NCBI GenBank assembly: GCA_030280995.1
Contig: JASXTE010000017.1
Coordinates: forward strand, 14,746,498 to 14,810,497
Direction: 5' to 3'
Source: Hemileia vastatrix
Taxonomy: Eukaryota; Basidiomycota; Pucciniomycetes; Pucciniales; Zaghouaniaceae
Length of the DNA: 64,000 nt
The position numbers and the translations under genes are program-made. Below the pieces are notes generated by a model. The model worked only from the letters and a program-made list of their open reading frames with translations, did not search any database and was not told where the DNA came from. Of the stretch, positions 4,552-37,080 are shown one piece after another (the stretch's first letter is position 1; the number at the start of each line of letters is the position of its first letter).

Positions 4552-4555
4552 CAGG

Positions 4556-11989: not shown

Positions 11990-12019
11990 TGAAATTTGGA
12001 AAAAAAAAGGCTCAACTTT
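11990..12019 (+). repeat. Left half of a repeat split by the 24.9-kb element
   Basis: 'gtgaaatttggaaaaaaaa' followed by 'ggctcaacttt' matches 44436-44465. The match stops exactly where CACCACGC begins and resumes at 36887. The last three bases (ttt, 12017-12019) form the target duplication. Confidence 0.85.
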
Positions 12020-12067
12020 CACCACGCAATATTTGGGGGGGACTTGCTAGCAAGTCCTCAACTTGAA
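12020..12067 (+). repeat. Left terminal inverted repeat of the 24.9-kb element
   Basis: Starts CACCACGCAATAT, G run, then GACTTGCTAGCAAGTCC and 'tcaacttga'. It aligns to the reverse complement of 36839-36886 with a few small differences. Three near-identical 'aactcagactg' units follow at 12069-12105 as possible subterminal repeats. Confidence 0.9.
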
Positions 12068-12949
12068 GTCAGATGGAACTCAGACTGAACTCAGACTGAA
12101 CTCAGACTGAACTGATACTCAAATGAGACTGAAATCTGCTTGACATTATCCTGAACTCTGTGCCAATACTTAATGGATCTTCTGTGAAAGTATAATGAAT
12201 GTCTGAATAGAGAATTGCATGATATTTTGTGCTTGAAACAAGTAAAAGTTGAATGATTTTTTTTTAAAGATGATTAGTCAAAATTGAAAGCCATCCTTTT
12301 AGACTGAATTATAATGTTCGGCTTTAAAATATGGGAGACTGATAATGTAGGCTTTTTAGTATTATTTGGCTTCTCTCATTTTAAGGATATAATCATTTTT
12401 TCAAATTGATAATACATAATGAGTGGCTTGGTTATTCAAGATTATTTTTGGGATTTTCAGAAGTCTTGGGATCTCTTAAAACCTAACTTTTTTTTAATCA
12501 ACACATTTTTGTCATATATTATCTGACAAAACAAAAAATGTAAGAAAGATATCTAAAAATTTTACTCAAAGTGTAATTTCATGTGAAATTTTCACTACTC
12601 TTATAACATACATTGGTTCCTTGTAGAAAAATCATTGAACTTCATTTTAACTAAAAGAATCTGTATGTACATAATTTTTTGGACTTTTAAGAAGATACTT
12701 ATCAATATTTTGAGTTATGGTATGGGTTCAGTTAAAAACCTATTCAAGGTAACCATAAATTGACTTCAAAATTCTGACAAAAATTATTGTGTTATTATAT
12801 ACATTTTACTGATCATTTCCATGCAGTCACTGGGCTCCTGGCAAACATGATCTGCATATTCATGCAATATGTCTAAATATTGATTAATTGGATTGTGCAA
12901 CTTCTAAACCATTTATATTCATTTTTGCTCCTTCTCATATCTCCACAAA

Positions 12950-15400
12950 ATGAGTTCCTTGAAATGTCTTGGTCAATTTATGGTTTCATTTGAACCAACA
13001 CCATCATATATGATATTAAAATTATCAAAAAACCAAACGGAAAAGGCAATGCTTCAGCGAGGTAGAAAAAGAGTTCATATTCTTTCTATGTTAGACACAA
13101 AGACTCTTAAAATTATTGGAGATCTTTCGGAAAAGCAAAGTGAACAAATTGGACCGCTTCTTGGAGAAATTGGCGACTGTTCTCATCGGTTGAACTTTGA
13201 ATCTGTGATGCAGCCGCAGCATAAAGCCTATTTTCAGAGCTACATAGTCAAACAGCAAAATGAAACATTGCAGCTGTGGTGCACTTTATTTGTAATCGAA
13301 AGGCATCTTAATGAAATAAAACAAAAATTTTATCTTGCTGGAATAAGTATACTTGAAATCGATGATTACGACAGCAAAACATTTTACAATATTGCTTCTT
13401 ATTGGTCAGAAATTGACTCATTTAGGATTGGACGAAATTCGATAACTCAAAATCAAATACTAGGAATAAAAACAGCATTAAAAACGCACCAACTTCAAGC
13501 AGTCAACTTTATTATTGATAACGAAAAATTTATGAAAGATAAACTGGATAAACTTTGGGAGCATGATGATAATAAATGGCTTCACAGTGTGTACCATCCT
13601 CGAAAACGAAATTATGAAAATATTGAACAACACTTTGGTGGATATGGGTCAATACTTGCAGATGACATGGGTTTAGGAAAAACACTATCGACACTTGCTC
13701 TGATAAGTGCAACACAAGAGCAAGCAATAAAATTTCAACAAAGATTGGAGCTTTTTGGTAAAAAACTAAGTTTTGCCACACTAATTATATGCCCATTATC
13801 TGTACTCTCGAACTGGGAAAATGAAATAAATCTTCATTTCAACCCTCGATCTCTTCCATACCATGTATTTCATGGTCAGATTTGTGATAATTTACGAGAA
13901 GAAAAGCTCCAGCGAACTGCGATTGTACTTACCACTTATGAAACAGTCAGCCCTTCGACAATAACTAAGCAAATGGAAAAAAAGTTATCACTGATAAGTA
14001 ACATTATATGGTATCGAATTGTTCTGGATGAAGCACAGTAAGTTATATATGTAACTTGACACAAAAAATGATGTTAGGAGATTTAACAAGAAACAATAAT
14101 TTATTATAGCTACATCAAAAATCCTCTAGCCAAAAGGACACAGAAGATTTTTAGTTTACTTTCCAAGCATCGACTATGTTTGACAGGAACACCATTACAA
14201 AACTCACCAGAAGATCTGCAGAGTTTAATCACTTTTCTTCAATTGGATGGATGGGATGAGGAGTCTCTTTGGAGAGAACAAATTACACCGAAACTGAAAG
14301 TTGGTTCACTGCAGGCAGTCAAAACTATCAACCACCTTATGAAGGTAGTCTGCTTACGGAGAACGAAGGATGTTGTGCTAAATCTCCCTAAAAAGGTTGA
14401 AGAAGGTATATTAGTGAGATTCGGAAGACACTGGCAAAAAAGACTGGACAAACTACAGGAAGAATTTTACAAGCAATTTGGTCCAAATCGTGATCAAAAA
14501 CAAACTTGGGATAATAGTGAATTTCTACGGCAACTAAAGGTTTTACAACTATTTTGCAACCATCCAATGTATGAATTTAGAAAAGATGAACGGCCTGATA
14601 GGTATACATGGAGAGATTCGGCTAAGATATTACATCTCATTGAGCATGTGATGGAGTTTGTGCAAGGGCAAAGAGGCATAAAGGAGCCCAAAGCAGTCAT
14701 CTTTTCAGAATATGTGGACTTTTTAGAAATGTAAGTGACTAACTTAACACTTTTTGATGAAGGAAAATTAAAGGAGTGATTATTTTCAAAAGGATTTCGA
14801 AAGCCCTAAAAGAGTATAACATTGGCTTTACAATGTATGTAGGTGATTTGAGTCGGAGGGCCCGAGATGAAAGTCTAAACAGGTTTAAAAACGATATCAA
14901 TTTCTTTGTTCTTCTTGGCTCCATTAAGTCAGCAGGGATAGGTATTGATTTAAAATGTGCACAAAATGTTTACATAATGGTATTTTAGCATATAATTTTC
15001 ACTTAATACAAGAAATTCAACTGGGAACACTTATTAATTGAATGTTTTATTATTGTGAATTTGTGCAGGAGCCAAGCTGGAATCCATCAATAGAATCCCA
15101 AGCTATTGATCGGCTTTTTCGAATGGGTCAAAAAAACAAGGTCCATGTCATTAAATATTTTGTGAGAAAGAGTATTGAATTCAGTATGTACAACATTCAA
15201 AAAAAAAGGAGAAGTTAACTATGTATGTAAAATAAATTTTATATTGATGAAAAAATGAAAACTATTTATTTAAATTTTTATTTTCAAGGCTCAGTGTACC
15301 AAATAGTGGAGATGAACCATTTCAGCTTAAAAAGATGGTTCTTGATGAATATCTGAATGAGTTGAAGAAGTTGGAGCAGTCAGTTGAAGAAGATTATTGA
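12950..15400 (+). CDS. SNF2-family ATPase/helicase, five exons
   Basis: SNF2 ATPases use ATP to translocate on DNA and remodel nucleosomes or DNA-protein complexes. Proposed exons: 12950-14037, 14110-14730, 14763-14979, 15069-15222 and 15289-15400. Visible motifs: Walker A ADDMGLGKT (~residue 236), LIICPLSVLSNW (Ia), DEAHYIKNP formed across the first splice, LTGTPLQN (III), then GSIKSAGIGIDL and QAIDRLFRMGQ (V-VI). With one missing A restored in the run near 15200 the exons total exactly 731 codons. The second intron would be only 32 nt. No HIRAN or RING domain is seen, unlike Rad5/Rad16, though the core resembles that branch. It is the first gene inside the left TIR. I infer it is transposon cargo rather than a host gene. 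Confidence 0.85.
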
Positions 15401-15454
15401 TGTTTATTGGGTTGGAAATTTTCAACATTCTTTTTTCTTGATTATTGAGAGTAG

Positions 15455-16448
15455 CTAAATAATTATTATCATAGCAGTCAAGAGGTAAAGATCGAGGTAC
15501 TGATTCCTGTCGAAGCCTAGAAGGGAATGTATCCTTTGTATCGAAACAAGATCTTTTAGTGGCAATGATGATGTTTTTGATTTTTGACTCATTTCATGGG
15601 ACTTAAGATCGATATTTTGTGCTAGAATTGAAAATTCATCTGATCTCCATGATAGCAATACTTTACTTATTGACCCATCTTCATTGACTTCTGAGTCAGA
15701 GCAGCATTTGACATTAGTAAACAAATCTTTTGCTGTTGAACATATAGGAAGGGTCTTGAGAAAGTTTGTACGATGAACAGAGAGCTTCAAGAGATTATCA
15801 GCAAAGAACTCGAAAAAATATGAAAGATGTTAGACTGACTTTTTTACGTATCCTAGACCGAGACTTTTGAGCTTTTTTTTTCTCCAAATGGTCTGGAGAA
15901 TAGTGTCCAAGTCTAAGCATATTCTGTTGTCCAAGGAACCATCGATGGAGAACACCCATTTGATTAGCAAAGGAAATTGTGTTTGGATCGATAGGGTATG
16001 AAGCAAAAGCCATCATTCGGAAAGCATTGTCCCAATGTTTGATAATAAGTTGAGCAAAGCACTGATTCCAGTGAGAGTGCCATTCCAGATTCCAAGCAAA
16101 ATTACGACCTGGAAAGTTTGATGATTCAAGATCATTGAGAAATGCTTCATAATATGAATGAGGAATCGTTTCTGTCACAACACTAGAGCCTGAAGCTAAA
16201 CAAATCTGTACAGGGGATGTAATAGATTCATGTGTAATTAATGAGCATTTAAAAATCTGGTGATTTGTAGGAAAGAGTTTCCAAGATGTTGAAGTAGGAG
16301 ATATTTGCATAAGAGTTCTACAAAAACTATGGATGCAGCGACAAAAAGGAGAATTAGAAGGAGGAAGAATTTCGGAAAATATTTTATTTATTTGACGATA
16401 GTTTCTGGGAGGTTTTCCAGCAGGAAAGTAAGACCAATAATCAGGCAT
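15455..16448 (-). CDS. Uncharacterised protein of the giant element, two exons
   Basis: I do not recognise this protein. Exon 1 runs from the ATG at 16448 to about 15838. A GTCAGT donor and a TTGAAG acceptor at about 15790 join it in frame to a second exon ending at 15455, giving roughly 310 residues. It begins MPDYWSYFPAGKPP, has a Cys/His-containing stretch (PFCRCIHSFCRTL), an aromatic central block (HWDNAFRMMAFASYPID), then a basic KSRSRIRKK and LLGFDRNQYLDLYLL. No signal peptide or membrane segment is obvious. It converges tail-to-tail with the SNF2 gene, only ~55 bp apart, supporting a compact element gene set. Role unknown. Confidence 0.6.
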
Positions 16449-18315
16449 AATTTATAAAGAATTATGTATAATAAATGCTACAGTATGGAGGGGAGTCTAA
16501 TAGCGGAAATTATCTATCTTATATGATAGCTCCAACAGTGACATGAAGATATTACAAAGAGGTTGCTAAAAACAACGAATATACACTCAGGAATAAGCCA
16601 TAAAAACAATAGATCAAAAGGAATATAAATTAAAAAACTGAGTGTATTACATGAGATGAGTACTCATACATCGGAGGAAAGCATGGTTATCAAAGGAGTG
16701 TACTGAGAAAAAAAATATCGATCATTTTAATATGTAGCAGTAATGAGCATTCCCTGAAAGGGAAGTATAAAAACGAACAACATTAAGTAAATATAATTTA
16801 CAAAATGACATTTTTCTGAAATAAATAATATTCTTTGTCTAAAAAATTCCACTCATAATTAAGATAGCAATTGAACAACCGGATGATAAAGAGATATCAA
16901 ATATGCATGTACAAAACATATACTTGAAAAGAGTTAGTTGAAATTGTTTACATGAATTTTTTTAAAAAGACAAGGGCTTTATCTTTGCAAAAGGTAAGTA
17001 ATTGAAAGATGTTTATGGGAATATTTCTGAATTAATGCTTCTGAATGAACCAAAAAAACATCGGGCTATTAATTGCAATTGTCAAACCTAATGCAAGAGG
17101 TGAATTTTATCATTCACCCATAAAATAGTGCTTACGAAAGAATATTCAGAAAAAATTTAAAGGATATCTAGAGGGTAATTTCTCTATATGCTAATTCTAG
17201 GTCTGGATGGAACTAGTTCCTATGATGAAAATGATAATTCTGTTGTAGAATTAGAAGGCCATTATTTTAGTAATGGCAAAGTAAATAAAGTCATTTATGT
17301 AGCATTTGTTCAATTTTTTATTCCCACAGACCTAGAAAAAAACATAAAGTTAGTCACCTCACATGATGCCCCAAATCAATGAGGTGTACTCTATTTTTCG
17401 GCCGTAAAATAGAGTTCCCACCCAAGAATTGGAAGGAAAACTCATAAGATAAAAAAAAGTAATTATCAATGAACGTAAGTAATATCTCATAATAGAACTA
17501 TTTTATATAATTTCATCAATAATGTCAAGATTATAATGAGTTTCAAAATACATTAATTTACAGTTGTTTTAGAGGTTGAGCAAAATTTAATCACTAATAC
17601 CAACTCAAAAAACATGGGTTAACTCATATCAGCTGCTTCCTCCCAGAAATTTCATCAATATATTTTCAGTAGGTAAGATGCAAGAAAAATTGAATATATT
17701 TGAAAAAAGGAGATAAGAGTAAAATGGGTAAAGGAATAAAATATATACAATCAATTAGGAACAAAAAAGATTTGTGTTATTTTTCATATATTATTAATTT
17801 CAATATTTTATTACAAAAGGAATATAAATCCTTGAAATGATTTTTTCAATGATGATTATTATTATGTGATGGATTGATTATTCATTGAAACCTGTGCAAA
17901 ACTAAAAATGTATGATTTTGGTACCATTTTAAGATATTAATATTTCTATAAATGATAATTCAATAAATTATTATAATAAATAAAATTATCTGACCATCAT
18001 AAATTAAGATTAATAACACCAGTTATCAAATAGTTTTGTTTTCATGGTAGAGATAGATGAATCCTTTCAAGTACTTAGAGGTGAAAATTTATTTTTTGAT
18101 TAATCTCTTGATAAAAGTACATTCAAACATGGAAATAAATTGGATAGTTTACTCTAATTTTTTGCATAAAATTTGTATTCATATTAGCAAGTATGCGAAT
18201 GCAAATAATAATTATTTAGAAAATCTAGGACAAACAAATTAGTTTCAATGTTGGTTTTTGAAATTGCCCTCCCAAACTTCAAATTCATTTTCCCAATTCT
18301 GAATATCCCTCATCA
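16449..18315. other. Gene-poor interval between divergent element genes
   Basis: Likely holds promoters for the minus-strand gene ending at 15455 and for the transposase. One 64-codon ORF (17188-17382) is unrecognised and unsupported. Otherwise AT-rich, with nothing convincing. Confidence 0.5.
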
Positions 18316-21300
18316 ATGCCATTTCAGCCAAAAATTTGTGAATGTACAACATTAGGTTGTGCATTCAAGGTTCATCTAATGCCACTTGGAACCTACCGAA
18401 CAGGAGTTATATATAAAACTGCAAAGTCTTACAAGAATCATCAAACCGAATGTGCAAAGAAAATTAATACAGACTGTATTAAAGATTCTATGTTGGAGGG
18501 AAATTCTGGCAGTTCATCTCAGGTATTTTCATTTTTTAAAATTGACAAAGGTTATATGTGGAGAGAATGTTTAGAGAATAAAATCTAAAACATTTATTTT
18601 TTAGTTACCGAATTCTTTAACTCCAAAGTTAACTGGCACTATTCTTGGCCAGTGTAGCATGGTAGCTGAGGAGAAGTATAGTCGATCAGTAATGTTACAG
18701 GCAGCGAATCTTTATTCATCGAATAAACTCAGCTTAAGAGGATGTGAATCTTTCCTAAAAAACCAAATAAAAAATTTGAAAATTCTTGGTGATGATCGCT
18801 CATTGAACGTTGATGGAATCATTAAAAAAATTCCCCAGTCACTCGAAACGGTATTTCGTCGTCTTAAACTCTACCCGACACTTGTCACCAGGACATGCTG
18901 TGCTAAATGTTTTGCTCTTTATGAATTTGATCTGGATGATCATCCTTCTATTAAAACATGCACTCAAGTATTCATGTCATCATCGAAAAAATATGTGAAA
19001 CAGTTACCAGAAAAAGAAAAGTCTCCGCAGTGTAATGAAGATCTTTACACTAAATCTTACAAAGAAAAAAAAAAATCATTTACAAGCCAAAAAAAATATT
19101 TCTATATAATGTGTTTGTTGATTGGATTTCGATGAAATTGAAGCAGAAAGATTTTGATGAAGGGACTCAAAAGTGCAAATCTTTTAGAAGATCAGATTTT
19201 AATGTAATGGATGACATCTGGGAAGGGGAGATTTGGAATAATTTCCCTGAAGATTCAAATGCTTCAGAGGATGGCTATTCTGCTTTTGCTTCGACTCCTG
19301 GCAATTTGGTGTTCAGCTTATACGTGGACTGGTTCCGGCCTGGAGGTAATCGGATTGGAAGTCATCAGAAATCAGTTGGGTTGATTATGCTTATTTGTAT
19401 GAGCTTACCACCATCTGAAGGATATTGCGAAGAAAATTTATTTCTATTCTCGATAATACCAGGTCCAAATGAGACAACGAGTGAACAATTTTACCATCTT
19501 TTGAAGCCTTTAGTTGATGAATTCAAAGTACTCTGGGAAGGCATATGGGTCAGCTCCACACATTCTCATCCAGAAGGTGAAAAAATCCGAGCTGCAATCT
19601 TCCCATTAATTGCAGATATTCCTGCACTTCGGAAAGTAGCAGGCTTTGCTGGCCACTCAGCAACACGATTTTGTTCTTTCTGTTTATTATCAATTAATGA
19701 AAATGATGAGTACGATGTGAATAAATTTCCTTGTCGGACCCATGAAGAACACATGAAACATGCAAAAGAATGGAAAAATGCAACAACACATTGGGAACAA
19801 GAAAAAATTGTTTTAGAGCATGGTGTCCGCTGGAGTGCTTTGAATGAATTGAGCTACTGGAGACCGATAGAATATTGTGCTTTGGATATGATGCATTGCC
19901 ATATGCTGGGTAATCTTAAGGATCACAGCAGGATGTTTTTACGAATTGAAGATGCAGCGATCGAACTTGAAAAGAAGTTGAAGAAGGCAGAGAATTGGAA
20001 TATTAAAGATTTGGATGATTCAGTTTATCCAGAGAAAGATGTAAGAAGTTCTCGAAAGCGGCAGTATGAATCTGATCAAGAAAATAAGCTGGAATTCTTG
20101 TCATCCAGGAGTGGTAGTATGCAACCTTTAACTGAGTTAAATCTTAAAATGATAGCGAGTGAAAAGGGTGTTAATGTAAGGAAGCGTCAAAAAACCGATA
20201 GTTATTTCCTCAGATCCCAATCTCAGTCAAACTCTTCAAGCATCTTTTTTGATCACTCGAGTGGTATCCCAGTTAGTTCAAGTTATAATTTGCGGAGTGG
20301 AACTAAAGGCGAATCATCAAAAATAGCTAGTGAAGACTCTTCTGAGGGGTCGCACGTGACAGCTAAGGGAAATGAAAATGCTTTGAGTAAAGAAGTAAAA
20401 GATTCTGCAGACTTTTTAGACCCTAGATTAACGGGAGATGAATTGCTAGTGGTAAGGAAGGTTATTCAGCAGACAATAACTCCTTCTTGGTTTACACGGG
20501 TACCGAAAAAATTGGGATCAAAAACTGGAGGTTCACTAAAGGCAGCTGAGTGGCATGTACTGTATACTGTCTACTATCCACTTGCATTGATACCACTTTG
20601 GTTTCAGCAAAGTTCATCACAGGGATGCTCAACAGGCTTAGAATTACCGTCCAGAGAATCAATACTACTAAAATCATTGACGACTTTGATTTCGATTACG
20701 AACTTTCTAACCCTGAAGAAAATATCAAAAGATGAGGTGAAAGATTTAGAAAACCTTCTTTTTGAATACCGTCAATGTCTTCAGAGTGGATGGAAACATC
20801 AAAGGATAAAGCCAAACCTCCACCTAACTCAGCATTTCCCTGATGTGATAAAACGATTTGGGCCACCTGCTTATACTGCCACATGGGCAGCTGAAAGAAT
20901 AAATGGTAAACTTTCAAGTATTTCAAATAATCATCATTCTTGTATGTCAAAATAAAATTTTTCATTGAATATTTAACAATTATTAATATCATATTTTGTA
21001 TGTAAGATGAGATACCAAAAACGATTCTCAAGTATTGGCATGTCAAGACAGTTCTAATGCAGTATGAAAAAGAAGAAAACATGGAGCTAAACAAAGATGA
21101 AAAAATGACGAAAGATTTGGATAGTGTGAAAGAGTGTATTACGCTGGATGAAGCAATTTTTCAAAAATGGGCAAAAGCACGAATTGGAAAAGATAGTTTA
21201 AGACGGCATTTGTCATTATCAGAGATCAAAGTTGAAAGAGTGGTGCAAGTACTCAGAAGCTTTGTGTTAAAAGGAAAACGATTTATGACGAAATCTAAGC

Positions 21301-21638
21301 ATGAAGGTAACTCAACAATCAAATTCAAATATTGTGATGATTGGAGTTTTGGTCAGATTGATATGTTATTCACATCAAAAGAGGACAAGGGAGAGGTTTG
21401 GGCGATTGTTAGTCCTTTCAAAGAAATCCTGCCTAGCGAAACACACAAGGATCCTTATGAGAGTCATACTCTTCTAAATAGCAGAGTACTCAGGGATTCT
21501 AAGGCCGCCGCTATTGTTGTAAGTGAAAAGTCGATAATAGGACATGCAGCTATCCTGAAACATCAGCGAGGAACTTTTGGTATGAAAGAAAAGATTATCA
21601 CGGCTGTTGGGTTGAGGTCCATTGTAAGTCAAAACTAA
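18316..21638 (+). CDS. Tnp2-family (CACTA-type) transposase
   Basis: Catalyses excision and insertion of the element in the nucleus. Exons: 18316-18522, 18605-20941 and 21007-21638, about 1,055 residues. The N-terminus has a Cys/His group (CECTTLGC with a later H and C), then RTCCAKCFALYEF. The core has NLVFSLYVDWFRPGGN, LIADIPALRKVAGF, a CSFC pair, YWRPIEYCALDMMHCHMLG, and TWAAERINGKLS; the acidic residues fit a DDE/DDD triad, though I infer their roles. A basic, Ser-rich insert (~residues 580-700) precedes the C-terminal part. One A is missing in the 11-A run at 19064-19074: restoring it lets the frame continue into VFVDWISM. That may be a real mutation or a homopolymer error. It lies among genes of the same element. 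Confidence 0.85.
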
Positions 21639-22030
21639 TTACTCTGAATAGAAGCAGTTTGAGTTAATTTTGATCTTTTGGCATTTGAAAGGAGTGGTAA
21701 TGCAAGCAAAGTGATGAATGGCACAATTTTGGGTGGAGAATGGGAGAATAAAGATTTTTTTGATTGAGCAATGCCTTAACAACGTGATATAAAAAAATAG
21801 TTGCATAATTCCAAACATCACTCAGCATTATGAGATATCAAACATGAATTTGGTAGGAATTCGACAGAGATAAAAAAATTTAGAAAAAGTAATAAGTAAG
21901 GTGGGAAGTATAAATAATACTCATTTCAGTTTAGGAAGGCAATTTTCAAGCCCAATTCCAAAACTCTTTATAAATTTTTCTCTGATTAATTAACAACACT
22001 TTTAAAAAAATTATTGTAAAGGATTAAAAT

Positions 22031-23749
22031 ATGGACAAAGATTTTGATATGAGTAAGACATTGTTATCTACTAAATCATTCTGCCAAGTTAATAATTTGA
22101 TATTTCTAATTTGACTTCAATTTCACAAAAAATAGGTCAATTGTTAAATTCTATTATTGATAATGGAACTATGGATATGGATGTGGAATACGAGAATTCA
22201 GAAGATAATGATGGTAACAGTAACCCCCACTCTGGTCCTTCTACATCTACATCTAACGACCAAAGGCAGAAAAATACTCCGCATCAAAATCGAGAGGAAC
22301 AGACGAATCAAAATGGGGCTGCTAAGAATGCTGAATTTGTTGCCCGGTTACTGAATGATTTCCTGCCCAAGAATACTGAACAAAATCCAGATGAACCTGA
22401 ATTTTCTAGTTGAGTACTTGAAATTATTTTGATAAATGCAAATGTACTTTTAATGACTGATTTAATTTTTTTCCCTGTTTTGTAGGCACTTTTGATCCAA
22501 AGCTACGAAATAATATTAAGGAGCAAAAAAGGAAAGCGGCTGAGAGAAGAACAGCAGAGGGTCGTCAAGAAAAAGTCATAAAATCCATCTCGAAAGCAAG
22601 AAATGCACCCAGAAGTTCTGAAACAATCAGCCGAAATATTCATCACTTCTTAAGAGTGTGCCTGGGTGGCCCGACACAACTGAATCACTATCCAGAAAGC
22701 CCAACTGAAGAGGAGGTTAAAAATTGGCTTAATTGGACTCAGAACAAAAAGAATCTACTTCGACAGGCAATTGAAAAGGTTTTCTCAATTCATCAGCCAA
22801 AAACTGCTGCTGATAAAGACTATTTAGCTAGAACTGCAGCTGCTCACATTGGAGCGAAAATTGGTTTGCCTGCTTTTCAGCCTACGAGTGATTTATTGAA
22901 CATTCCTGGTGGTCCTCCTGTCCCGATGACATTGAAGAAAAATCTTGAGCGGGCTTTACAAGAAAAAGGATTCCCGAGACTTACTTTTGAATGGTAATGC
23001 AAATCATTTTCAGGATCAGTCTGGAATCAAGTAGTATCGGCAATTTTGGCAGAATTTGCACTGACTTGGCTTAAGACGGTGAATTGGGTGGACGCAGAGA
23101 AATTCAAATTTATTTCCATTGTCATTGAACAGTGGGTTTTAAATAAAGGTAAAGAGTTGAGGAAGTATAAAGGAAGAAAAGATACTTCTCTTGCGGATAT
23201 CAAGAAGATAAACCATTCCAAGGCACAAGTGCAAAGACACTGAAAAAAAGTGAGAATTTCCCCTAATCTTTCAAAATAAAAGCTACTTACAAGATATGAT
23301 TTTATTTAACATTTTAGATAGCTGAAACATGTTGGACTATATCGGGTAAATACTGCCATGGAAATGAAGATTTTATCGCCCTCTTTTTGACAACTGAATG
23401 CACATCAGATATCGAGGAAGAAAAAGAGTCTACAAAGCGGCCCATACGTGTAATACCTGCATGGAGAAGCCAACGACTCACTGAGTGTATCCATTTACTT
23501 GATAAAGTAGCATTTTCTTTAGCAACAAATCAAAGGGCTCTTCTCCAGTATAAAAAGACATATGAGCGCTCTTCTGAGAAAAAATCTTCAAAAAATGGTA
23601 TAATTGGTGTTCCCCGAAATTTACCAAAAAATTTTTACTCAAGTGATTTTTTAAATAGTCTAAATAAGATTGAAAGTGATATTCTTGCAGCTAAAAATGA
23701 AGTTGATTTAGAAAAGATTTATTCAAGCTTGAATAATTTATGTATATAG
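22031..23749 (+). CDS. Companion protein of Tnp2 elements, function unknown, possibly broken
   Basis: The ATG at 22031 with a short exon (22031-22052) splices in frame to 22136. A further intron (~22410-22485) leads into a basic region (DPKLRNNIKEQKRKAAERR) and HHFLRVCLGGPTQLNHYP. The frame continues to 23243 across one in-frame TAA at 22995. After an intron ending ~23320 it resumes with DFIALFLTTECTSDIEEE, IPAWRSQRL and PRNLPKNFYSSDFLNSL. From memory, genes of this kind (acidic stretch, 'WR', 'LP..FY') commonly neighbour Tnp2 transposases in basidiomycetes; function is not known. The TAA and an unclear fourth junction suggest decay. Confidence 0.6.
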
Positions 23750-25050: not shown

Positions 25051-27432
25051 ATGTCAGACTCAAGTTCCGAGCTATCATCAGTCCCGTCTTCAGGTTGTAA
25101 GAAAAATGCAACACCATCACCCGGTTAGTAATAAGTCAGTGATAAAAAACTATTTATGTGAAAGCTTACTTTTCATTTTGTATGTAGATGCTCAAGCAAT
25201 AAAAGAAAATTTCAATGAGACTGCCACTTTCAAAAAATTTTCACTCCAATCAAGCAATCCATTACAATCAACATCTAGGGAGCCAGCACTTCAGTCAGAA
25301 ATTATTGAGATTACGGCTGAAGAATACTATGAAAAACTCAATATGATGGAGGAACGAGCAGCATCTTTTGTTCGGGAGTTGGAAGAAATGAGAGTTCACA
25401 AGGCATATGTGGACTCAGCATCATCGTTTCTTAACTTTGTTAAACATCAAAAAAAATGTGAGTAATTTCATACTTTAATTGTTATTGAATCTAAAACATT
25501 ATTATTTATAATTATTAGCATATCTGGATACTAAGAAAGTTCCCGAAGATTCTCATATTAAGGTCAAGGAGGCACAAGAGTCAGAATCGGGTAGTGCTTC
25601 AAGAAATGTAAACAAGAGGTTGGATCATACTCATCGGACAAAAAGAGCACGTACCTCATTAAGCTCCTCATTGGTTCCAGAATATTCTTCATCTCCTACT
25701 CCTGATGGAGAAGAAGAATCTGAAAGACAAGAAGACCCAATGTTATCAAGTAATTCGTAAGTATAATTTTAATCATACAACTTTCATGAGATATACTGAT
25801 ATCCCTTCTCATAAACTATTGTCGTGCAATTTAACTTTAGGAAAAACGATCAAGGTGAATCTGCAGCAGGTAAAAGATGAATATAATATCATAGCTGATA
25901 ATTTAAAATTTATTTTGTGAAACTGACACATTTCTTTTTATAATATTTACAGACATAGATGCAGAAAATTCACAAAAGAAAAAAGAAACACCAATCATTG
26001 CCAGTGACGATCACAACAGAGAGATATCATCTGCGGCTGAAGAAACAACTGCAAGGGATGATGCGGTACCACATTCTCAAACGGAACCGTTAAGTATGTG
26101 TATTTAATATTTTTATTCAAAAAAAAATGTGGCTAAATGTTTAACATTTCTGTAGTATCTTCTGCATCAAAAGAGCCGTCCTTGTTGAAAGATATGGATT
26201 TAAAATCAGATATCAAAGAACTTTATTATTTTTTTGAAGGAAAAATCAGCTGGCAAAAGGTGAACAAGGCATGGAATGCAATCACATTCTTTCTGTATTT
26301 TCGAGGAACGGAGAAGATTTTAACACCGTCGTTTGATGCGTTCTCGTTTCATTTCACCCAAGGCACTCATGCAGAATGGGTTAAAGTCATCAATGAATTG
26401 GGTAATTTCTTCACTATTGAAAATATAATTTTTGTATTTATTAACTTTATGACTCTTATTGTAGGCCCTCAATTTTTGGATTTAAATGAATCTACGCAAC
26501 CATGGTACTCGACCGATCAAATTGACTTTTCAAAACTTGCCGAGTTCAATGCAAAATCATTGAATGAAACTTATGGGGACTTGTGCAAAAAGAAGACATC
26601 AAATCCAGAAACCCACCTGTTTCGTTTGCTTAGTCGATGTCAATTTGTCAGCCCACATTCTCAACAGTACTGGTCGACACTGATTGCCTCGTCTCTAGAG
26701 TTAATGGCAAACGAAACACATCAGGCACCTCCACCCGAAATGATTGAGAATGATGATCCGGTAACACGAAGTCTTCTATTAATCGATCATATTGACAAAC
26801 TTATGAACAAGACTCCACCAATTTCGAGTTCAGCAAGTGAGATGAAGAAGTACAAAGCCATGACCAACTCAATGACGCCGCTTTTACAATTTCAAAATGT
26901 CATATCCAACTGTTTGAAGTCATACTTGTCATTGTATGCAAGATCACAGGCGAAACCCAAAACAGCTTCAGAAAAGCGGAAAAGAAAAGAAAAAGACGGT
27001 GGACAATTGATTCAGTCTGGATCCAACAATGCAGAAGAAAGGTCACTGATTCAGATTGAACAAAGCACAGCAAATCATAACTTTCAACCTTTTATTATGT
27101 ATTTGATAGATGGGGTAAGGGGTTTATTTATATGTTCGCATGATTATAGATTTGCAAGTATCAGTGATTGTTTAGCATTTATAAGTCAGGTTGATTGTAT
27201 TCGCAAAAAAAGTAATTGCACATTTAATTCAGAAGAACGTATATGGAAGAATCTCAATAGCTACATCATAGGTCTTTTTTACAAAATTATCAAAAATCCA
27301 GCAAACACGAAAGACTTCTGTATGCCATCACACTTGGAAATAGCTCGTGCAATAACTGCTGATTTTTTGGATCATTGGAAAATAGTCCAACCTGATACAT
27401 ATTTTTTTCAAACTCCAAGTATTAAAGAGTAA
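25051..27432 (+). CDS. Second uncharacterised companion protein, multi-exon
   Basis: Starts at the ATG at 25051 (MSDSSSELSSVPSSG). I can follow in-frame joins at GT-AG introns ~25097-25186, 25456-25519, 25757-25838, 25869-25952, 26094-26155 and ~26402-26464, then an open frame to 27432; about 650-700 residues. The N-terminal third is Ser/Glu-rich, has a likely coiled coil (EEYYEKLNMMEERAASFVRE) and a basic patch (HRTKRARTS). The C-terminal half is a folded-looking domain (WQKVNKAWNAITFFLYFRG, ETHLFRLLSRCQFVSPHS, basic SEKRKRKEK). No family recognised. Clean splice phases argue for selection on the coding sequence. It is the third consecutive plus-strand gene after the transposase. Confidence 0.6.
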
Positions 27433-28067
27433 ATATTGATTATATTTATATAAATAGATGCTATACTTGATATAATATTGATGTAAATAGCTACAATAAT
27501 ATGAATATTTCAAAATAATAATAAAAAAATTAAAAATTAAAAAAATTTGGAAATAAGAAATATGCAAGAATTATGTAAAATGTGCAATAATTATAATACA
27601 TGGATTAAAAATAAATGTGAATAATAATAAATATGAGGTATGCAAATGAAGTGTGGAAAGATGGAAAAATAAGAATTATAAACAACTTTAAAAAATAAGA
27701 TGACAGTTATAAATGTATTTAATGAGTATAAAGTGTTAGAAAAGAAGAATAGGTAATTGAAAAAACATCAACAATTAAATATGAAGTACAGAATCATAAA
27801 AAATGTAAAAACTCATAAGTCGAATGATTAAATGATATATTCATTCATAGAAAGAAAGCAGCAGTGTTATTCCTGATAATAATAGAAGTATACAAAGGCA
27901 AGGAATAATGAATATAATATACTCATCAAAAATATAATTAGATGAAGAAAAGAGAAAGAATAATGTGAACACATTCAAATTAAAAAATGTGTACTCTAAC
28001 CTATAATGGTAGTTAAGGGTAATCCAAATTGATATTCCAAAACAGATTGAAATAGAAGCAAAAAAAC
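27433..28067. other. AT-rich spacer before the palindromic array
   Basis: Very AT-rich, rich in ATAA and TATA runs. No gene or domain seen. Confidence 0.6.
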
Positions 28068-29962
28068 ACAAGTGTACCCTGATCTTCGCGCGAAGACCAG
28101 GGTACACTTCTCAAAATCTCTGATACAAATTTTATCAAGGCCAATATACAATGGTGGACTCTGATGTTCGGCCGAAGATGAAGGTCCACCTCTTCAAATA
28201 TCACTGAACACATGGTTGCAGGCAAAAATACCATGGTGTACCCTGATCTTCGGCCGAAGATCAGGGTTCAAGTCTTCAAATTTCAAGAAATATTTGAATA
28301 GGAGAAAAAACATATGTACCCTGATCTTTGTGTGCAAATCAGGGTACACATCTTCAATTTTCACACACAATGTGTAGAAAGGCAAAAATACAATGGATGC
28401 CTCTGATGAAGGTGTTAGAACAAGGGTCATTTATTTTCAAATTCATGAACAATTTGAATACAGGGAAAAATGAAAGGTGAACCCTGATCTTCGCGCGAAG
28501 GTCAGGGTACACATCATCAATTTTCATGTAGTTTTTGAATAACGGCAAAAAAACACATGTGTACCCTGACCTTCGTGCGAAGATCAGGGTTCACTTGTCT
28601 AAATCTCACATACAATTTAGTCCAGGTAAAAAATACAAAGGTGGACTCTGATCTTTGCCTGAAGATCAGGGTACACATCATTAATTTTCATGTACTTTTT
28701 GAATAACAGCAAAGAAACACAAGTGTATCCCTGATCTTCGCGCGAAGATCAGTGTACACTTCTCAAAATCTATGATACAATTTTGATCAAGGCCAATATA
28801 CAATGGTTGACTCTGATCTTCCGCTTGTGAAGAAGGTCTACCTCTCTGAACACATAGTTGCAGGCAAAAATGCCATAGTGGACCCTGATCTTCAGGGAAA
28901 AATCCGTGTACACCTCTAAATTTTTTTCATATAATTTAAAATAATGCAAAAATACAATGAAGGAATCTGATGTTCCCCTGCAGGTAAGATTTTCCTTGAA
29001 AGATTATTAAGTGAAGTTAAAATATACTTTCGAAAACCACATGTAAATCTTGACCTGTGCAGATTAATCATGGTTGGTTTGTTATAATTTATACATGAAC
29101 AAAATTACTTCAAATTCTAACAATCAAAGACTATATATCATATTATTTTATATTAACTAAAATAACAGTGTTCATCTTTGAATTTGGAATAGTTGACCTT
29201 TATTGTTTGCTTTAGATGGATGCCCACCTGTGATTTTTACTCCTACTCATATGTTGTTGAAATTTGAAGAGGTGTACCCTGATCTTCGCGCGAAGATCAG
29301 GGATACACTTGTGTTTCTTTGCTGTTATCAAAAAGTACATGAAAATTAATGATGTGTACCCTGATCTTCAGGCAAAGATCAGAGTCCACCTTTGTATTTT
29401 TTACCTGGACTAAATTGTATGTGAGATTTAGACAAGTGAACCCTGATCTTCGCACGAAGGTCAGGGTACACATGTGTTTTTTTGCCGTTATTCAAAAACT
29501 ACATGAATATTGATGATGTGTACCCTGATCTTCGCGCGAAGATCAGGGTTCACCTTTCGTTTTTCCCTGTATTCAAATTGTTCATGAATTTGAAAATAAA
29601 TGACCCTTGTTCTAACACCTTCATCAGATGCATCCATTGTATTTTTGCCTTTCTACACATTGTGTGTGAAAATTGAAGATGTGTACCCTGATTTGCACAC
29701 AAAGATCAGGGTACATATGTTTTTTCTCCTATTCAAATATTTCTTGAAATTTGAAGACGTGAACCCTGATCTTCGGCCGAAGATCAGGGTACACCATGGT
29801 ATTTTTGCCTGCAACCATGTGTTCAGTGATATTTGAAGTGGTGGACCTTCATCTTCGGCCGAACATCAGAGTCCACCATTGTATATTGGCCTTGATAAAA
29901 AGTGTATCAGAGATTTTGAGAAGTGTACCCTCATCTTTGCACGAAGATCAGGGTACACATGA
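28068..29962. repeat. Inverted duplication of an ~81-bp palindromic satellite
   Basis: Units every ~80-83 bp contain a 36-40-bp palindrome of the type GTACCCTGATCTTC, then GCGC or GGCC, then GAAGATCAGGGTAC. Left arm ~28068-28762 and right arm ~29268-29962 are reverse complements about the centre 29015, with no net indels over at least 28194-28548. The ~505-bp spacer has three degenerate units. Two more lie at ~30018 and ~30100. ORFs read as repeated 'DVYPDL..KIRVH' peptides on both strands, which the period (close to 27 codons) explains. Likely a structural or regulatory array, or a foldback element; not coding. Confidence 0.9.
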
Positions 29963-30129
29963 GTGGGTTTACCACTATATTGTTTGCTTTTAACACATTG
30001 TTATTAAAAATTGAAAAGGTGCACCTTGATCTTAAAGCAAAGATCAGCGTAAACATGTGTATTTTTGCTTCAATTCAAAATGTTTATGAAATTTGTAGAA
30101 GTGTGCCTTGACCAGCAGCCGTTAATCAG

Positions 30130-30763
30130 TGTCTGTCCTGTTATTTTTACCTACTGAAATGGTCCTATCCTTTAATCACATCATTAATAATATTTTCTTA
30201 ATAATCACATCTATATTAATATTTACCATCCTTCAACCTCCTTGAAAATTTATTCATCATTTATAATTCCTTGATAATATTTTCTTTGTATCTCCTTATT
30301 TGATCATCTTCATATTTATTTTACCATGTACTTTAACATCTACATAAGATTCTATTATATTCTCTAGTTTTATGTTACTGTGCTTGTGCTATCTATGTCA
30401 TTTTAATGACTTCACTATCAACTACATATCTCTCCTTCAGTCTCAATACATCAATATACATTGTTAACAAAACCCTTTTACATATGATTACTCCCTTTTT
30501 GTAAACTTCACTATCTCTCTCTATACTGCTTTTCTTAATTTAGTGGAACCTCATTATTCAATTTCTTTCTGGTGCTCTCACATAGATCCTTATATACACA
30601 TACCTCCATAACCTTTTTTTATAACATTCTTTACCCTCATTTTGTTACTTCAACCCACAGCCATCACTTTACTCTACCTTTTCACACTACTTTTTCAAAG
30701 TTTCAGAACCTACATATGATATACTCAGTATTTTCATCTTTTAAAAAATGCTTAATATTATTT
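30130..30763. other. Pyrimidine-rich gene-free stretch
   Basis: T/C-rich on the plus strand with no domain-bearing ORF. Probably the 3' flank of the minus-strand oxygenase gene. Confidence 0.5.
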
Positions 30764-32022
30764 TTATTTAATATTGTTCTTACCATCTCTTTTCTTCTTA
30801 AGAGAATTATCAACACTTTTCTGATAAGTTATGAGTTTTTCATGATCCTTATCTGCCAGATTTTTGTTTTGTAGTGTCGTTCTAATTTTTTCTTTTAATA
30901 ATTTTAGCTTTGTTGTTTTGTCTTTTGTTGCAATGTACTGTGGAACGTCTATTCCTAGAAGAGAAAAAATTTCAAGTCCATTGAATAGCTTCTTGGAAAC
31001 TTGAATTGATGATCCCAGACGTGTGAACCCTTCTTCCTCATTACATTTTGACGTGTAATGCAGTACTTCATTCGCTGGCCAAAGTATCAACCATAGTCCA
31101 TCACAGTTGTTGAAGCTTATTTTCGTCTCCAACTCTGGGAAAATAAACTCTCCTCCTTCTTGTCGTGGTTTATTCTTATTGTATGGGCGCTCATCGAGTT
31201 CATTTTTATACGTATTTTTGGGGTACCGAATCCCAAATGCATATCGACTCCCATCCCTATCGCAGTGCGGAGTGTTAATGTATCCATTACCATTAATCCC
31301 TGTGGTCCATGTCAGATTTCCAAAAAAAGAGTCCTCTTCCTCTTCCCAACCCGGTATATTTAACTCTTTTGACAATACCCGTGCTTCCTCATATAACTTC
31401 TTGGACAACAACTGAAAGAAAAATCTATAAAAAATTGATAATCGTTTTTTTGCTTGATCTCTTTCAGCTTTTGTAATATTTTTGTTCACATATTGCCCTA
31501 ATACAGTCTATTAATGTTTAAATAATTGGAAAACATGAAAAAATGCTTACTTAAATTGAGAGGAATCGAGCATCCCATCAAAATTCCTTCAGCAAACATT
31601 ACTCCACTTTCTTGTGGTCCGTTACATGAGACCACATGCTCCAAAAGTTGAAGATCTCTCATGGCCTGTCTCGTATTGTCAAGTTTATTGAGCATTTTTA
31701 ACTGCTCCAACGAAATCGATGATATAATTATTGGTCGTACACCTCTTTTTCTGGGCTGGATGAAGTATGTTCCCTCATTCAGCTGCTTGAAATCTTGTGG
31801 GTTTAATGCTCCATATTGTGTCTTGTGTATCGGTTTTACTTTCAATTGTCTACCAAACATCAGATTTCCTTCTATTACACTAATTCCCCCCTCTTCTGCT
31901 TCTTTACTTGCCATAATATTTCTTTTTCCATTTTTGTTTGGATGTTTTTTCTTCCCTGCCCTTCTCCCTCGATTTTTTCCTTTACCATCCTTTCTCACAA
32001 AGTCTTCTTCTGAATCACACAT
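30764..32022 (-). CDS. Tet-like 2OG-Fe(II) oxygenase, two exons
   Basis: Exon 1 is 31551-32022 and exon 2 is 30764-31497; the intron is 31498-31550 (GTAAGC...TTAG), phase kept. About 400 residues. The TET/JBP superfamily oxidises 5-methylpyrimidines in DNA using Fe(II) and 2-oxoglutarate. Visible core: FGNLTWTTGINGNGYINT, the HxD iron ligands in NTPHCDRDG, then FIFPELETKISF, a distal His in NEVLHYTSK, and GSSIQVSKK, whose basic residue could bind 2-oxoglutarate. The N-terminus is strongly basic (KGKNRGRRAGKKKHPNKNG), fitting DNA binding or nuclear entry. A TAA lies just upstream in frame, supporting this ATG. It has no frameshift. It lies inside the 24.9-kb transposon. Assignment to 'Tet-like' rests on motif order recalled from rust proteins; substrate is unproven. 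Confidence 0.8.
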
Positions 32023-32119
32023 GGGTTACTCTACTAAAACTTCGATTCAGATATAAATTCATGGTCATTATATGACTTCTCAATCATTTAAATTACATAA
32101 ATTAAATGTTTGAGTTGAA

Positions 32120-33260
32120 ATAACATGATTCAGAGTCTAAGAGGGGCAATAATGCTCTAACAACATGCTCGCTGCATTAAAACTCAATCATGTTATTTCA
32201 TACTAATCAAACACTAGACAATTTTTTGTTATAAAATGAAGATACTTTGACATACATTAATTTATTTTAATCCAAAAATTTTCAACCTCCTATTTTGTAA
32301 CCAAAAAAAAACAAGAACGAAACGTTAATTAAAACTCAAATGAAATTTATTACTTTTAAGTTATCATTGCATGAATGAGTGACTAAGAGGGGCAATAATG
32401 CTCTAACAGCACGCATGCTGCATTAGTCATAAATCACATAAAATTTACTATTCCCATAACTTCAAGAGAACAATTAACAAAAAAAATCCACATACTTTCG
32501 TTAATATTCCAGTTGTTGTTGTGTACAGAAGAAAATCTGTAATACAAAAATAAAAATAAAATAAAAAGTATTAGTACAAATAATTACTATATCTAAACAA
32601 TCTCTTGTCTAAATATTTTTTGATTGAAGTACTATGAGCAACAATATTAAATTCACAACACTATCGCTGCATCAGTCATCAATCATGTAATATATTACCC
32701 CAAATTACAAAATTAAATGTGAAGAAAACCTAAGATTACTTACATACTTTTTTTAAAACGTCTATTTGCCCTAACTATAACTGAACCTACATTAAACAAA
32801 TGCCATCGAAAATTCATAATGTTAGTAAATATATCCATTATTTTATGAAAATCTGTCTGGTAAAAATTATATGATTGAGGGTACTAAGAGGGGCAATAAT
32901 GCTCTAACAACATGCTCGCTGCATTAGCCCTCAATCATGTAATATTTTCCCATTATGACAATTATAAAGTAATATTTTTAAAAATTATAACCATTTACAT
33001 ACATTTTATACCGTGCAGCTTCTGTTCCCAAATAAGAGCATGTAAAAGAAAATTAAAAAAAAATTAGCAAAATCTTTTATTTATTTAAAACATTTTTTTG
33101 TATATATTACTTGATTGAGTTACTAAGAGGGGCAATAATGCTCTAACAACATGCTCGCTGCATTAGAACTCAATCATGTAATAATACAAAAAATTTTAAA
33201 GAATTTTCTTTGATGGAAAAACAATAATTTTACATACCTTTATTTACGCAATGATATAAT
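32120..33260 (-). repeat. Five ~245-bp spaced hairpin/intron-like units upstream of the oxygenase gene
   Basis: A core (AAGAGGGGCAATAATGCTCT, then AACAACATGCTCGCTGCATT) occurs near 32140, 32385, 32635 (diverged), 32888 and 33127. It is flanked by inverted arms. Arms co-vary: GATTGAGGG with CCCTCAATC in the fourth, GATTGAGTT with AACTCAATC in the fifth. On the minus strand each core is preceded ~80 nt by GTATGT (complement ACATAC at ~32252, 32491, 32741, 33000, 33232), a 5' splice site. Other spacer sequence is not conserved. I read these as introns or structured elements of the 5' leader of the gene starting at 32022. Confidence 0.75.
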
Positions 33261-33900
33261 TTTGAATCAATAAATATTATTAAATAGATATGAGTGAAAC
33301 AGAACCTGAAGAAAAAAATCCAAGTCAATATCAGAACCACTCATACTACGTTTAACAATGTAAAATCAATTCATTCATTCACTAAAATTATTTGTAATAT
33401 TTACGTACTTCATCATGCCATATATCAAAAAATATATTTGCCTGAATAACATGCTCAAACCTTTCAATAGTAGTTTGTTTTTATTCACCAAATATCTTCA
33501 AGCAATCCAGGTAGATATTTTCTGGATGGCTGGCGGAAAAAAGAAGATGGGGTGCTATAAAATTGCACTCAGCTTGCAATTTCACAAGAAAAAATAGTAT
33601 CTGAAGTTGCAAAGGCAAAAATTCCCCACAAGTATCTCCAAAAATCATACTTGTTTCATGAATGAGCTAGGATAGACATATTTATCACACAAAAAGGTAC
33701 AAATTTAATGTTAAGCTGTGTGGAAGGTCAAATTCAAATTCTTGTAGACCACTTGCTGCTAATCGATACAATCCATGAACACATCTAGTCTTATATTTAC
33801 TAGATTGAATGTCGAAAAATGTGATAGATATATATCACTTGCTTCCTAGCAATTAACTCACTCTTTGTTGGATGGAAACCAATCATCACATTATTATTTG
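33261..33900. other. Spacer between hairpin units and the subterminal repeats
   Basis: AT-rich, no domain. On the minus strand an ATG at ~33344 opens a short frame ending in TTCTTCAG; it could be a distant 5' exon, but this is not supported further. Confidence 0.35.
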
Positions 33901-33934
33901 CAGGGGGATACATCCTGCTATCAAATTCCTGCCA

Positions 33935-35000
33935 GCAATCTTGAATGATATTCTTGCTGGAAGGTTACAATGTTAATCAATTATTTTGACCACTTTCCAG
34001 CCATCGATTCAATATTTAGATGGCTGGCAAGCCAAAAATAGGTGCAAGTACCTGCCAGCCAGCAAATCGCTTGTAAGCTGACTGGCAGGTTGGGTGAATC
34101 AATGATTTGTTTAGCCCCTAATTTCATGCCAGCTAGAAACAAACCAATTCGGTTTCTGGCTGGCAGGGTAGCAGATTGAGTGGTTGGGGAAATGCATCAA
34201 TTTCTACTTCCTTTCGGCAGGAAATATGATGCTTAGCTTGCTGGAAGGAATGAAGCGAATCTATGCTTTTGTGGAAACCTGAAAATGCCTGCCAGCCAGC
34301 TGAAAAGCATATCGCTTGCTAGCTGGCAAGTTGTGATTTCAATTGATCATATTTGATCAATTTGCTTGAGCAACTCGCTTGCTTCATGTCAGCAAGTTTA
34401 AAAAATATTGAGGGGAAGGAGATAAAAATTCATATTTGAGAAGATTATTTGCCTGCCAGCCAGCAGAAAATGATTAACTTGCTGGCTGGAATGTTGATGT
34501 AGCATGCAGTGGTAATCAATTGATCGATTGATCAATCAATCGATTGATCGATCGATCGATTGATCGATCAATTGATTGATCGATCAATCGATTGATCAAT
34601 TGATTGATTGATTGATCGACTTGACAGCTGCCTGTCAGCCATCCATACAGATTTTTTTTGGCTGTCAGGCAGCCGTCAAGTTGATCGATCGATCGACTTG
34701 AACGCTACATCACCCTACCAGCCAGCTGCGATGTGACTTTGTCGCTGGCTGGCAGGGATGTACAATTGATTTGCTGTCTACATGCCAGACAGCTAGGCAG
34801 CAACTTGCTGTCTGGCATACAGCAAGCAATTGATTTTTGGGGGTGATGCTTGCCAGAAAAGGGTGGCAAGTGCCTTGCAAACTTGCACATGCCTGCCAGC
34901 CAGCTTAAAAGTAATTGGTATGCTGGCTGGCAGGGTCAGGATAAGAATTTTTTTAAGATGCCAGCCAGACAGCGATTAAAATGACAGCTGTCTGGCAGGC
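33935..35000. repeat. Subterminal hairpin-rich region (TGCCAGCCAGC motif)
   Basis: At least ten copies of TGCCAGCCAGC or its complement GCTGGCTGGCA, mostly as inverted pairs 15-25 nt apart (e.g. 34060-34100, 34288-34330, 34452-34495, 34715-34755, 34888-34935). A self-complementary GATC/GATT run occupies ~34510-34620, and a further pair (GACAGCTGCCTGTCAGCC and complement) flanks 34650. CACTA elements typically bear subterminal repeats bound by their own proteins; this region, 2-3 kb from the right end, fits that role. Confidence 0.75.
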
Positions 35001-36838
35001 ACTAAGTGAGACAGGAGTTAAACAAACTAAATATAAGAATAGAAACGAAATAAAAAACAAAAAGAGGCAGGAAATGAAAATGAAAGAGAAATACAGGCCA
35101 AAAAATGAGAATGAGAGAGTGAAATGATATAAAAATAATTAAAGAGAGAAAAAAAGAGAGAAACAGTCATTGATGAGCCACCCAAAAAAAAAACTTACTA
35201 ATTAATTATTGACAGGTTCTGTAGGAAGTGATCAGAAGCAAGTCAAGGGGTCAAAGAGTTTGTTGGAGGAAGCGTAGGTAGTCCGTTTTTGATGAATAAT
35301 GACAATTTAAGAATATCAAATTAAGACTCAGTCATAGAAATAAGTGAGGGCAAGCAAATAAAATGAGCAAACTTCAGAGATGGATAATATGCAAATTTCA
35401 ACGTCAAAAAAAATTTGGCATGTAAATAAGAGTGATGTTCTGTCAAACAAAAATCCATGCATAATATTTAAATCTTTAAATTCAAAAAAAATATTTAATA
35501 TTTCTTAATTCAATTATAATCACCTACATTTCAATTTCTAACTATAGTTAGTTGAATATTTCTGATTTTGTAGAATAGAATGTACACTACCAACTCAAAA
35601 ATGTTTGAAAAATGACAAAAAAAAATTCAAAAAAATGATTTTGTGTAGAATTTATGATAACCATTGGTAAGTCAATGATTAACTTCAATTATTTATTTAA
35701 ATTCTTCCTATATCGGACATATCTTCTTTCAATTTCATACAATTTCAACCAGAATTGGTTATGAATTATATGGAGAAGTTAATTGTAAATACATGATGAC
35801 AGTGGCATTTTAACATAACAAGAAGCAAAAAAAAGAAGGAAAACTGCAGCATCAAAGATTATTGCATGAGAGGAACAATATTTGAAAATCTACCAGATTG
35901 AAAAAACAAATACCCCAACTAATGGGGCAGTGGGAGAGTGACAGATAAGACTTATAGTGTCAATGGGATCTTTAAGCTGTTGTGCTACTTTCAAAAGGGC
36001 ACAGAATTGTTTTTGGTGAGCAGGAAAGGGGAGGATGACACATTCTTGATTATTTTTGGTCCATAAGGGGCTTATGAGGCAGTTTGGAGAAGGTGAAGCA
36101 TTGAATTGGTTAAGGTACCTTTACAGGAGAATGGCCTGATAAAAATTGAATAAATTCCATAGCATGAGATTAGGATAACCTTGTCAAAAATTTATACATA
36201 CTGGCTGGGTCACAATTTCCCCTTAATTTTCAGAGTGGATTAGAATATGGGGGGTTAGGGGCGAGGAGATAAAAATATTTTCAAGTATTATAAACATATT
36301 TTCACTTTTTTCCTGGTTGTTTAAATGTTTGTACAGATTATGTCTCCTCTTAATTATTATTCATTCACCAAAATTTATTCATATTATTTATAATTTTTCC
36401 TGTCTATCACTAATCATTTTTGTATATTAGCTATTATAAAGTTCTCCTGCTTATTTAATATTGAGAAAAATGATATATTACAAGAATATTCTGAATGAGA
36501 AGATATTATAAGTAAAACTCTTCTTTTATACCTTTATAATAATAATTTTTTTTTAGGGCATCATTGGCTTATTTTCTTTTTTTTTTGGTAAACAACATTT
36601 ATATAACAATAATCTGAAAAGTTGAAAACCCCAACTTGGATATTTTATTGGACTGTCTAAAATGAAACTTTGTTTCAATTATTGAGAATGTGATTTCAAC
36701 ATGTTCTCAACAGATAATCATTTACTCATCAGTGAGTGTTCACATGAGCTTCAAGGTGTGTTCAAAGTAAATTCAATACTTCTTCATGATGGTTTCATCA
36801 CTTCCTCAATGTGTGCTCAAAAAGATATGAATTAGGGT
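35001..36838. other. Gene-free right end of the 24.9-kb element
   Basis: AT-rich, no ORF with a recognisable domain on either strand. Confidence 0.6.
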
Positions 36839-36886
36839 TCAAGGTTGCGGACTTGCTAGCAAGTCCGCCCCCCATATTGCGTGGTG
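36839..36886 (-). repeat. Right terminal inverted repeat of the 24.9-kb element
   Basis: Read on the minus strand it starts CACCACGCAATAT, G run, then C and GGACTTGCTAGCAAGTCC. It pairs with 12020-12067. The following TTT (36887-36889) completes the 3-bp target duplication. Confidence 0.9.
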
Positions 36887-37080
36887 TTTAAAGGTAAATA
36901 TCTCAGCAACCACTGAACTAAAATTCAAATTGGTTTGCTGGACATGAAAGATAGGCTTCATAAGTATCTTCAGCTTAAAGACAGTTAGGTTAAATAAAAC
37001 TAACCCTAATTCTGACTCTGCTTTTCAAAATTGCACAAAAACTTGAAAAGTGATGATGAAAATACCAAAAAGAGGGAGAT
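36887..37080 (+). repeat. Right half of the repeat split by the 24.9-kb element
   Basis: 'tttaaaggtaaatatctcag' and 'caaccactgaac' continue the repeat left off at 12019. It matches 44640-44825 through to 'aaaaagtgatgatgaaaat'. Confidence 0.85.

Follow-up and report, generated by a model that had tools for sequence, protein, structure and literature searches.

A large EnSpm transposon with predicted Tet-like and SNF2 genes in Hemileia vastatrix

We analysed a 64-kb stretch of Hemileia vastatrix DNA (contig JASXTE010000017.1, hereafter the window) and found an insertion of 24,867 bp (12020-36886) that is almost certainly a large EnSpm (CACTA-like) cut-and-paste transposon carrying a Tet-like oxygenase gene and an SNF2-family ATPase gene. 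Overall, the observations are probably best explained by a single fungal EnSpm transposon lying at a TTT within an older repeat, with the TET and SNF2 genes helping to sustain the element. The features are listed in Table 1.

Ends, target site and classification

The 13-bp end CACCACGCAATAT occurs only once in the window, at 12020, and its reverse complement is found solely at 36874-36886. The 18-bp perfect palindrome GGACTTGCTAGCAAGTCC has two occurrences in the window, one per end (12040 and 36849). When aligned, the two ends are identical in 44 of 49 columns (score 37.5), which bears out a sequence-only reading of the window that had described matching inverted ends of about 48 bp starting at 12020 and finishing at 36886. 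The same reading had placed TTT on both flanks, where we also find it, and had proposed that the flanks rejoin into an uninterrupted repeat. We joined both flanks by script with a single TTT and aligned them to the window; they align unbroken to 44600-44830 (80%, E 6e-53) and 44438-44588 (81%, E 2e-33), as proposed. The share of this homology contributed by the left flank is short (used by itself, it gives E values of 4e-7 for 32 columns and 2e-5 for 48). At the junction, one of these tandem paralogues reads GGCTCAACTTCAAA and the other GGCTCAACTTTAAA. These alignments make both paralogues natural empty copies of the target repeat, and the 24,867 bp thus represent one insertion event, or one insertion followed by later internal insertions.

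The termini read CACCA..TGGTG, and the element has the CAC..GTG ends and the 3-bp duplication of fungal EnSpm transposons (CMCT clade, in the sense of Kojima 2025). The strict CACTA core, described as the defining terminal feature (PMC1636069), is absent, so we group the element with fungal EnSpm elements that have only CAC..GTG in common. The earlier description of a CACTA-like element with a 3-bp duplication therefore holds for its kind, duplication and empty sites, with the correction that the ends read CACCA and not CACTA. A Tet-like gene lies between the ends, as in TET-carrying EnSpm elements. The ends are neither TGT..ACA nor CATCA..TGATG, the termini of Plavaka, and the duplication is 3 bp rather than the 7-8 bp of KDZ transposons (Dileera, Kyakuja, Zisupton), which also include members with TET genes (PMC12730594). 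The element had also been called larger than typical CACTA elements; it is large, but the parts of the literature covered include precedents in the En/Spm families of Chondrus (16-20 kb with 4-5 open reading frames (ORFs), according to a review) and a 16.5-kb CACTA-like element of quinoa.

Elsewhere in the window, 54153-54242 resembles the left end in the opposite orientation (81% over 91 bp) and looks like the decayed end of a related element. Within its 18-bp palindrome, one change is matched by a complementary change on the other arm and another is not. Ungapped scans of the window revealed no left partner for this decayed end at 54242 except the element's own left end.

Gene content, repeats and CpG composition

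Gene models came from a small script that joins exons and had been trained on nine long frames in the element. It returned five models, including the transposase; a set of open frames points to a sixth gene. Besides the transposase there are thus five predicted genes (four models and one set of open frames), three of them without a recognised domain. This agrees with the earlier count of at least five genes beyond the transposase, in which the identity of the Tet-like and SNF2 genes had gone unrecognised.

The expected Tnp2-type transposase is present. By our own assignment from alignment, it carries candidate catalytic D, D and E residues (D294, D390 and E816) plus C2C and H3H motifs (C409-x2-C412 and H792-x3-H796). 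The predicted structure of ORF 19054-20955 matches RAG1 and Transib, and the modelled protein has the RAG1/Transib fold. Its named relatives come from rusts and, together with the published TET-carrying EnSpm elements, point to a rust fungus as the likely host. ARAGORN placed a tRNA-Phe at 19097-19193, which lies inside the transposase frame, lacks Rfam support and was taken as false. Outside the element, 39898-40781 holds what is left of another Tnp2/Plavaka-type transposase. Its two Pfam matches are below cut-off, and it shares 36% identity with that of the element over 196 residues.

The HxD...H...R residues have known roles in the 2OG-Fe(II) oxygenase family. In the Tet-like protein we assign them to an HCD (HxD) and to a distal H and R, all in place, and the second-exon ORF alone matches PF20515 at 6.7e-23. 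The gene is apparently complete. The SNF2 gene is likewise predicted to be complete: both helicase halves are present, and the splice sites were inspected, the last two exons being the least certain. A search of the PDB for relatives of the SNF2 protein gave 84 matches, the nearest being RAD5 (2.8e-44) and, closer still, 1z63 (3.6e-47), the Snf2/Rad54 protein of Sulfolobus.

The 673-aa protein has no homologue at E <= 0.001 among 2727 candidates, in a type of search that needs shared 5-residue words, so that an empty outcome is not proof of absence. For 22096-23749, the script gave no model and Pfam matches were all sub-threshold. A search for relatives in viral contigs yielded 40 stretches that fit a pattern, none of them confirmed. 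Starships are defined by a tyrosine-recombinase captain at one end. No tyrosine-recombinase domain scored above cut-off in the Pfam scan of the element proteins; ORF 22461-22997 has a sub-threshold match to Phage_int_SAM_4 (17.3 bits, cut-off 27).

The subterminal regions contain TGAAC, the core of the left tandem repeat unit, with four and two occurrences in the left and right 300-bp subterminal stretches, in mirrored orientation. The opposite orientation has none there (0.40 expected per strand). TGAAC ranks above all other 5- and 6-mers scanned; the longer TGAACTC, as well as GAACT, is confined to the left end. Perfect palindromes of at least 14 bp are also concentrated in the element, which makes up 39% of the window and holds 16 of its 18 palindromes, a count made without a shuffle control and in which 11 of the 16 fall in two repeat arrays. 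Subterminal repeats and palindromes of this kind would fit putative binding sites for transposon proteins.

One repeat array, at 28034-30152, is possibly a foldback element within the transposon. In another, upstream of the Tet-like gene, five hairpin units have a conserved inner sequence, with one copy diverged. Folding four of the five gave z scores of -3.5 to -6.6 in three and -0.9 for 32360-32440, and pairing in the units is 81%, versus 22-41% when slid. Covariation is within the range of shuffles: depending on which of the five measures is taken, 35 to 113 of 500 do as well. Rfam gave no family at gathering score in the whole window and five matches at E <= 10 in 32000-33400, all far under the cut-off. 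A self-cleaving ribozyme was considered for the hairpins at 32.1-33.2 kb and set aside for lack of an Rfam family and of covariation beyond shuffles; we describe them as a hairpin repeat.

The ratio of observed to expected CpG is 0.50 in the element (0.40 in its non-coding right part), 0.19 in the left flank and 0.16 in the right flank. By a two-border fit, a CpG-rich block runs from 13.0 kb (support 12.80-13.14) to 34.75 kb (support 34.71-35.53), with a log-likelihood gain of 77.8; the maximum in 200 shuffles of 1-kb blocks, for which the scanning grid was coarser than for the real data, was 50.2. CpG kept inside and lost outside supports a single unit, independently of the ends. It also implies either a younger age for the element than for the DNA around it or shielding from methylation-driven CpG loss, two readings that one copy cannot separate. 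In A. psidii, transposons are CpG hypermethylated, the youngest families most, and CpG declines with age (PMC12774611), a pattern that fits the contrast between element and flanks.

Within the otherwise CpG-poor flank, 2001-3000 is a lone CpG-rich kilobase (0.94). The very CpG-poor stretch at 3802-9255 (0.09) consists of probable Gypsy-type retroelement pieces, with an RNase H domain above cut-off (4556-5197) and an aspartyl protease below it (7018-7599). A 1.1-kb direct repeat pair (78% identity) lies at 9491-10580 and 59734-60822.

Table 1. Coordinates of the element's features and of the paralogous empty sites in the window
Feature	Position	Strand	Details
Target site duplication TTT, left copy	12017-12019
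Left terminal inverted repeat	12020-12067	+	starts CACCACGCAATAT; 18-bp perfect palindrome 12040-12057
Subterminal tandem repeat	12064-12133	+	11-bp unit TGAACTCAGAC, 6.4 copies
SNF2-family ATPase gene	12950-15400	+	5 predicted exons, 699 aa; PF00176 3.8e-59, PF00271 2.5e-16
Predicted gene, no recognised family	15455-16451	-	ORF 217 aa; 2-exon model barely above script threshold; no Pfam match
Tnp2-type DDE transposase gene	18316-21767	+	PF02992
Probable gene, no recognised family	22096-23749	+	open frames only: 22096-22413, 22461-22997, 22998-23243, 23318-23749
Predicted gene, no recognised family	25051-27432	+	6 exons, 673 aa; no Pfam match
Array of two inverted arms, ~82-bp palindrome-bearing units	28034-30152		arms 28052-28702 / 29328-29978, 97% complementary
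Tet-like 2OG-Fe(II) oxygenase gene	30764-32022	-	2 exons, intron 31498-31550, 401 aa; PF20515 5.2e-23
Five ~85-bp hairpin units upstream of Tet-like gene	32108-33190		~248 bp apart
Series of short inverted repeats	33920-35010		CTGCCAGCCAGC type
Right terminal inverted repeat	36838-36886	-
Target site duplication TTT, right copy	36887-36889
Paralogous empty site 1	44438-44588	+	junction TTC
Paralogous empty site 2	44600-44830	+	junction single TTT

Weighing the alternatives

Several observations weigh against our explanation. There is one change of reading frame in the transposase, near 19.1 kb, which may leave this copy dead or non-autonomous, and no second full copy of the element was seen in the window, so that the cargo rests on one copy. 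The Tet-like protein has no homologue at E <= 0.001 among 2767 candidates in the word-limited search, the PDB gave nothing for it at E <= 1, and its catalytic exon models poorly from the single sequence (predicted local distance difference test, pLDDT, 50.2), so that methylated cytosine is only its putative substrate. The fitted CpG borders lie inside the transposon ends rather than coinciding with them, and the edges of the element, about 1 kb at its left end and 2 kb at its right, resemble the flanks in being CpG-poor (0.09 for 12001-13000, then 0.24 and 0.16 across 35001-37000, around a CpG-rich interior). Silencing may have spread into these subterminal parts from the flanks, or they may never have borne CpG. 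Youth alone may also explain the CpG retention. Finally, when 2000 random pairs of 100-bp window pieces were scored like the ends, one outscored them (top five 17.5, 18.5, 18.5, 21.0 and 39.5).

That single pair is what speaks for chance, or for an assembly chimera in which the ends of different insertions were joined by the assembler. It may stem from the window's own repeats, and the case for paired ends stands on more than the alignment score alone: the ends match, TTT is present on both sides, the empty sites align across the joined flanks and the CpG-rich block lies within the same borders. We consider an artefact of this kind very improbable. A more serious alternative, if still a doubtful one, accepts the outer transposon as real and regards the SNF2 gene, and perhaps others, as passive cargo without a role in the transposon, either captured from the host as genomic DNA or brought in by a nested element. 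The gene models bear introns, nested insertions could be the source of the repeat arrays at 28-30 and 32-35 kb, gene capture has been described for plant CACTA elements (PMC8978399) and the evidence comes from one copy only. However, the SNF2 gene is not a fragment, having kept both helicase halves, and the fit gives a single, unbroken CpG-rich block. No nested ends flank the gene among the inverted pairs listed (25 of 95) or among self-matches of at least 80 bp, a search that short ends would escape.

A further possibility concerns the enzyme rather than the element: instead of demethylating, the Tet-like protein might make another modified base, such as a hypermodified pyrimidine, by which the element is marked or shielded. 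The protein's want of a homologue or solved relative leaves room for this, and Kojima 2025 allows for the same option in the PU and PE types (PMC12730594). Nevertheless, PF20515 is the Tet-like family, the HxD...H...R residues are present, and no glycosyltransferase appeared among Pfam matches of the element proteins and pieces at E <= 0.1, making this alternative unlikely.

Related elements and a proposed role

Three TET-carrying EnSpm families with CAC..GTG ends and 3-bp target site duplications have been reported from P. striiformis, with the proposal that TET counteracts silencing; the role of TET genes in fungal DNA transposons has had no experimental test yet (Kojima 2025, PMC12730594). 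Our element has the ends, the duplication, the Tet-like gene and a Plavaka-similar EnSpm transposase in common with these rust families and differs from them in adding SNF2, three genes without a recognised family and a length of 24.9 kb. SNF2 is absent from the main text of that paper (PMC12730594), the part covered here; gene content is given in its supplement. We found no description of SNF2 in a CACTA, EnSpm or TET element among titles and abstract openings, a search that took in few subscription papers and no supplements. TET-carrying EnSpm elements with CAC..GTG ends are thus already published from rusts, and the SNF2-bearing version is a variant of them. Academ transposons are said, by the title of the AcademH paper, to encode a helicase in animals and fungi. 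Iyer 2014 reportedly described KDZ transposons carrying TET genes. These share the TET cargo with our element and differ in transposase and in their 7-8-bp duplication.

Plant CACTA/EnSpm elements have a 3-bp target site duplication, as found here. They also resemble the element in having a Tnp2 transposase and subterminal repeats and in capturing genes (PMC8978399), whereas the element's ends read CACCA and its cargo has apparently complete chromatin enzymes. Anti-silencing encoded by a transposon is known from VANDAL and its VANC protein, which targets non-coding tandem repeats; VANC is a sequence-specific binding protein, and no TET or SNF2 gene is among the VANDAL parts described in the sections covered (PMC10398659). 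A pairing like that of our element occurs in kinetoplastid JBP2, where an oxygenase of the TET/JBP superfamily is joined to a SWI2/SNF2 domain, but JBP2 is a single host protein with a thymine substrate and the element has two transposon genes (PMC11065753).

The TET and SNF2 genes probably serve in anti-silencing. Under our explanation, the element would have inserted at TTT within the older repeat. Its transposase would bind the subterminal repeats and inverted ends, cut the element and, making a 3-bp stagger, reinsert it. Methylated cytosine (5-methylcytosine, 5mC) in the element would be oxidised by the Tet-like enzyme, while the SNF2 motor would open or slide nucleosomes, giving access to the oxygenase and to the transcription machinery. 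Jointly, the two would sustain expression of the element and protect its CpGs from methylation-driven decay. We only tentatively extend this to a two-part chromatin-opening kit, a split-gene counterpart of JBP2 used for selfish anti-silencing, in which SNF2 exposes silenced DNA, the Tet-like enzyme strips methylation and the CpG-rich block is the footprint.

The element suggests that CACTA-like transposons are able to mobilise 25 kb of DNA, including several genes that are apparently intact. With its TET gene, its SNF2 motor and a difference in CpG on the scale of a single insertion, it offers a testable system for transposon-encoded demethylation.

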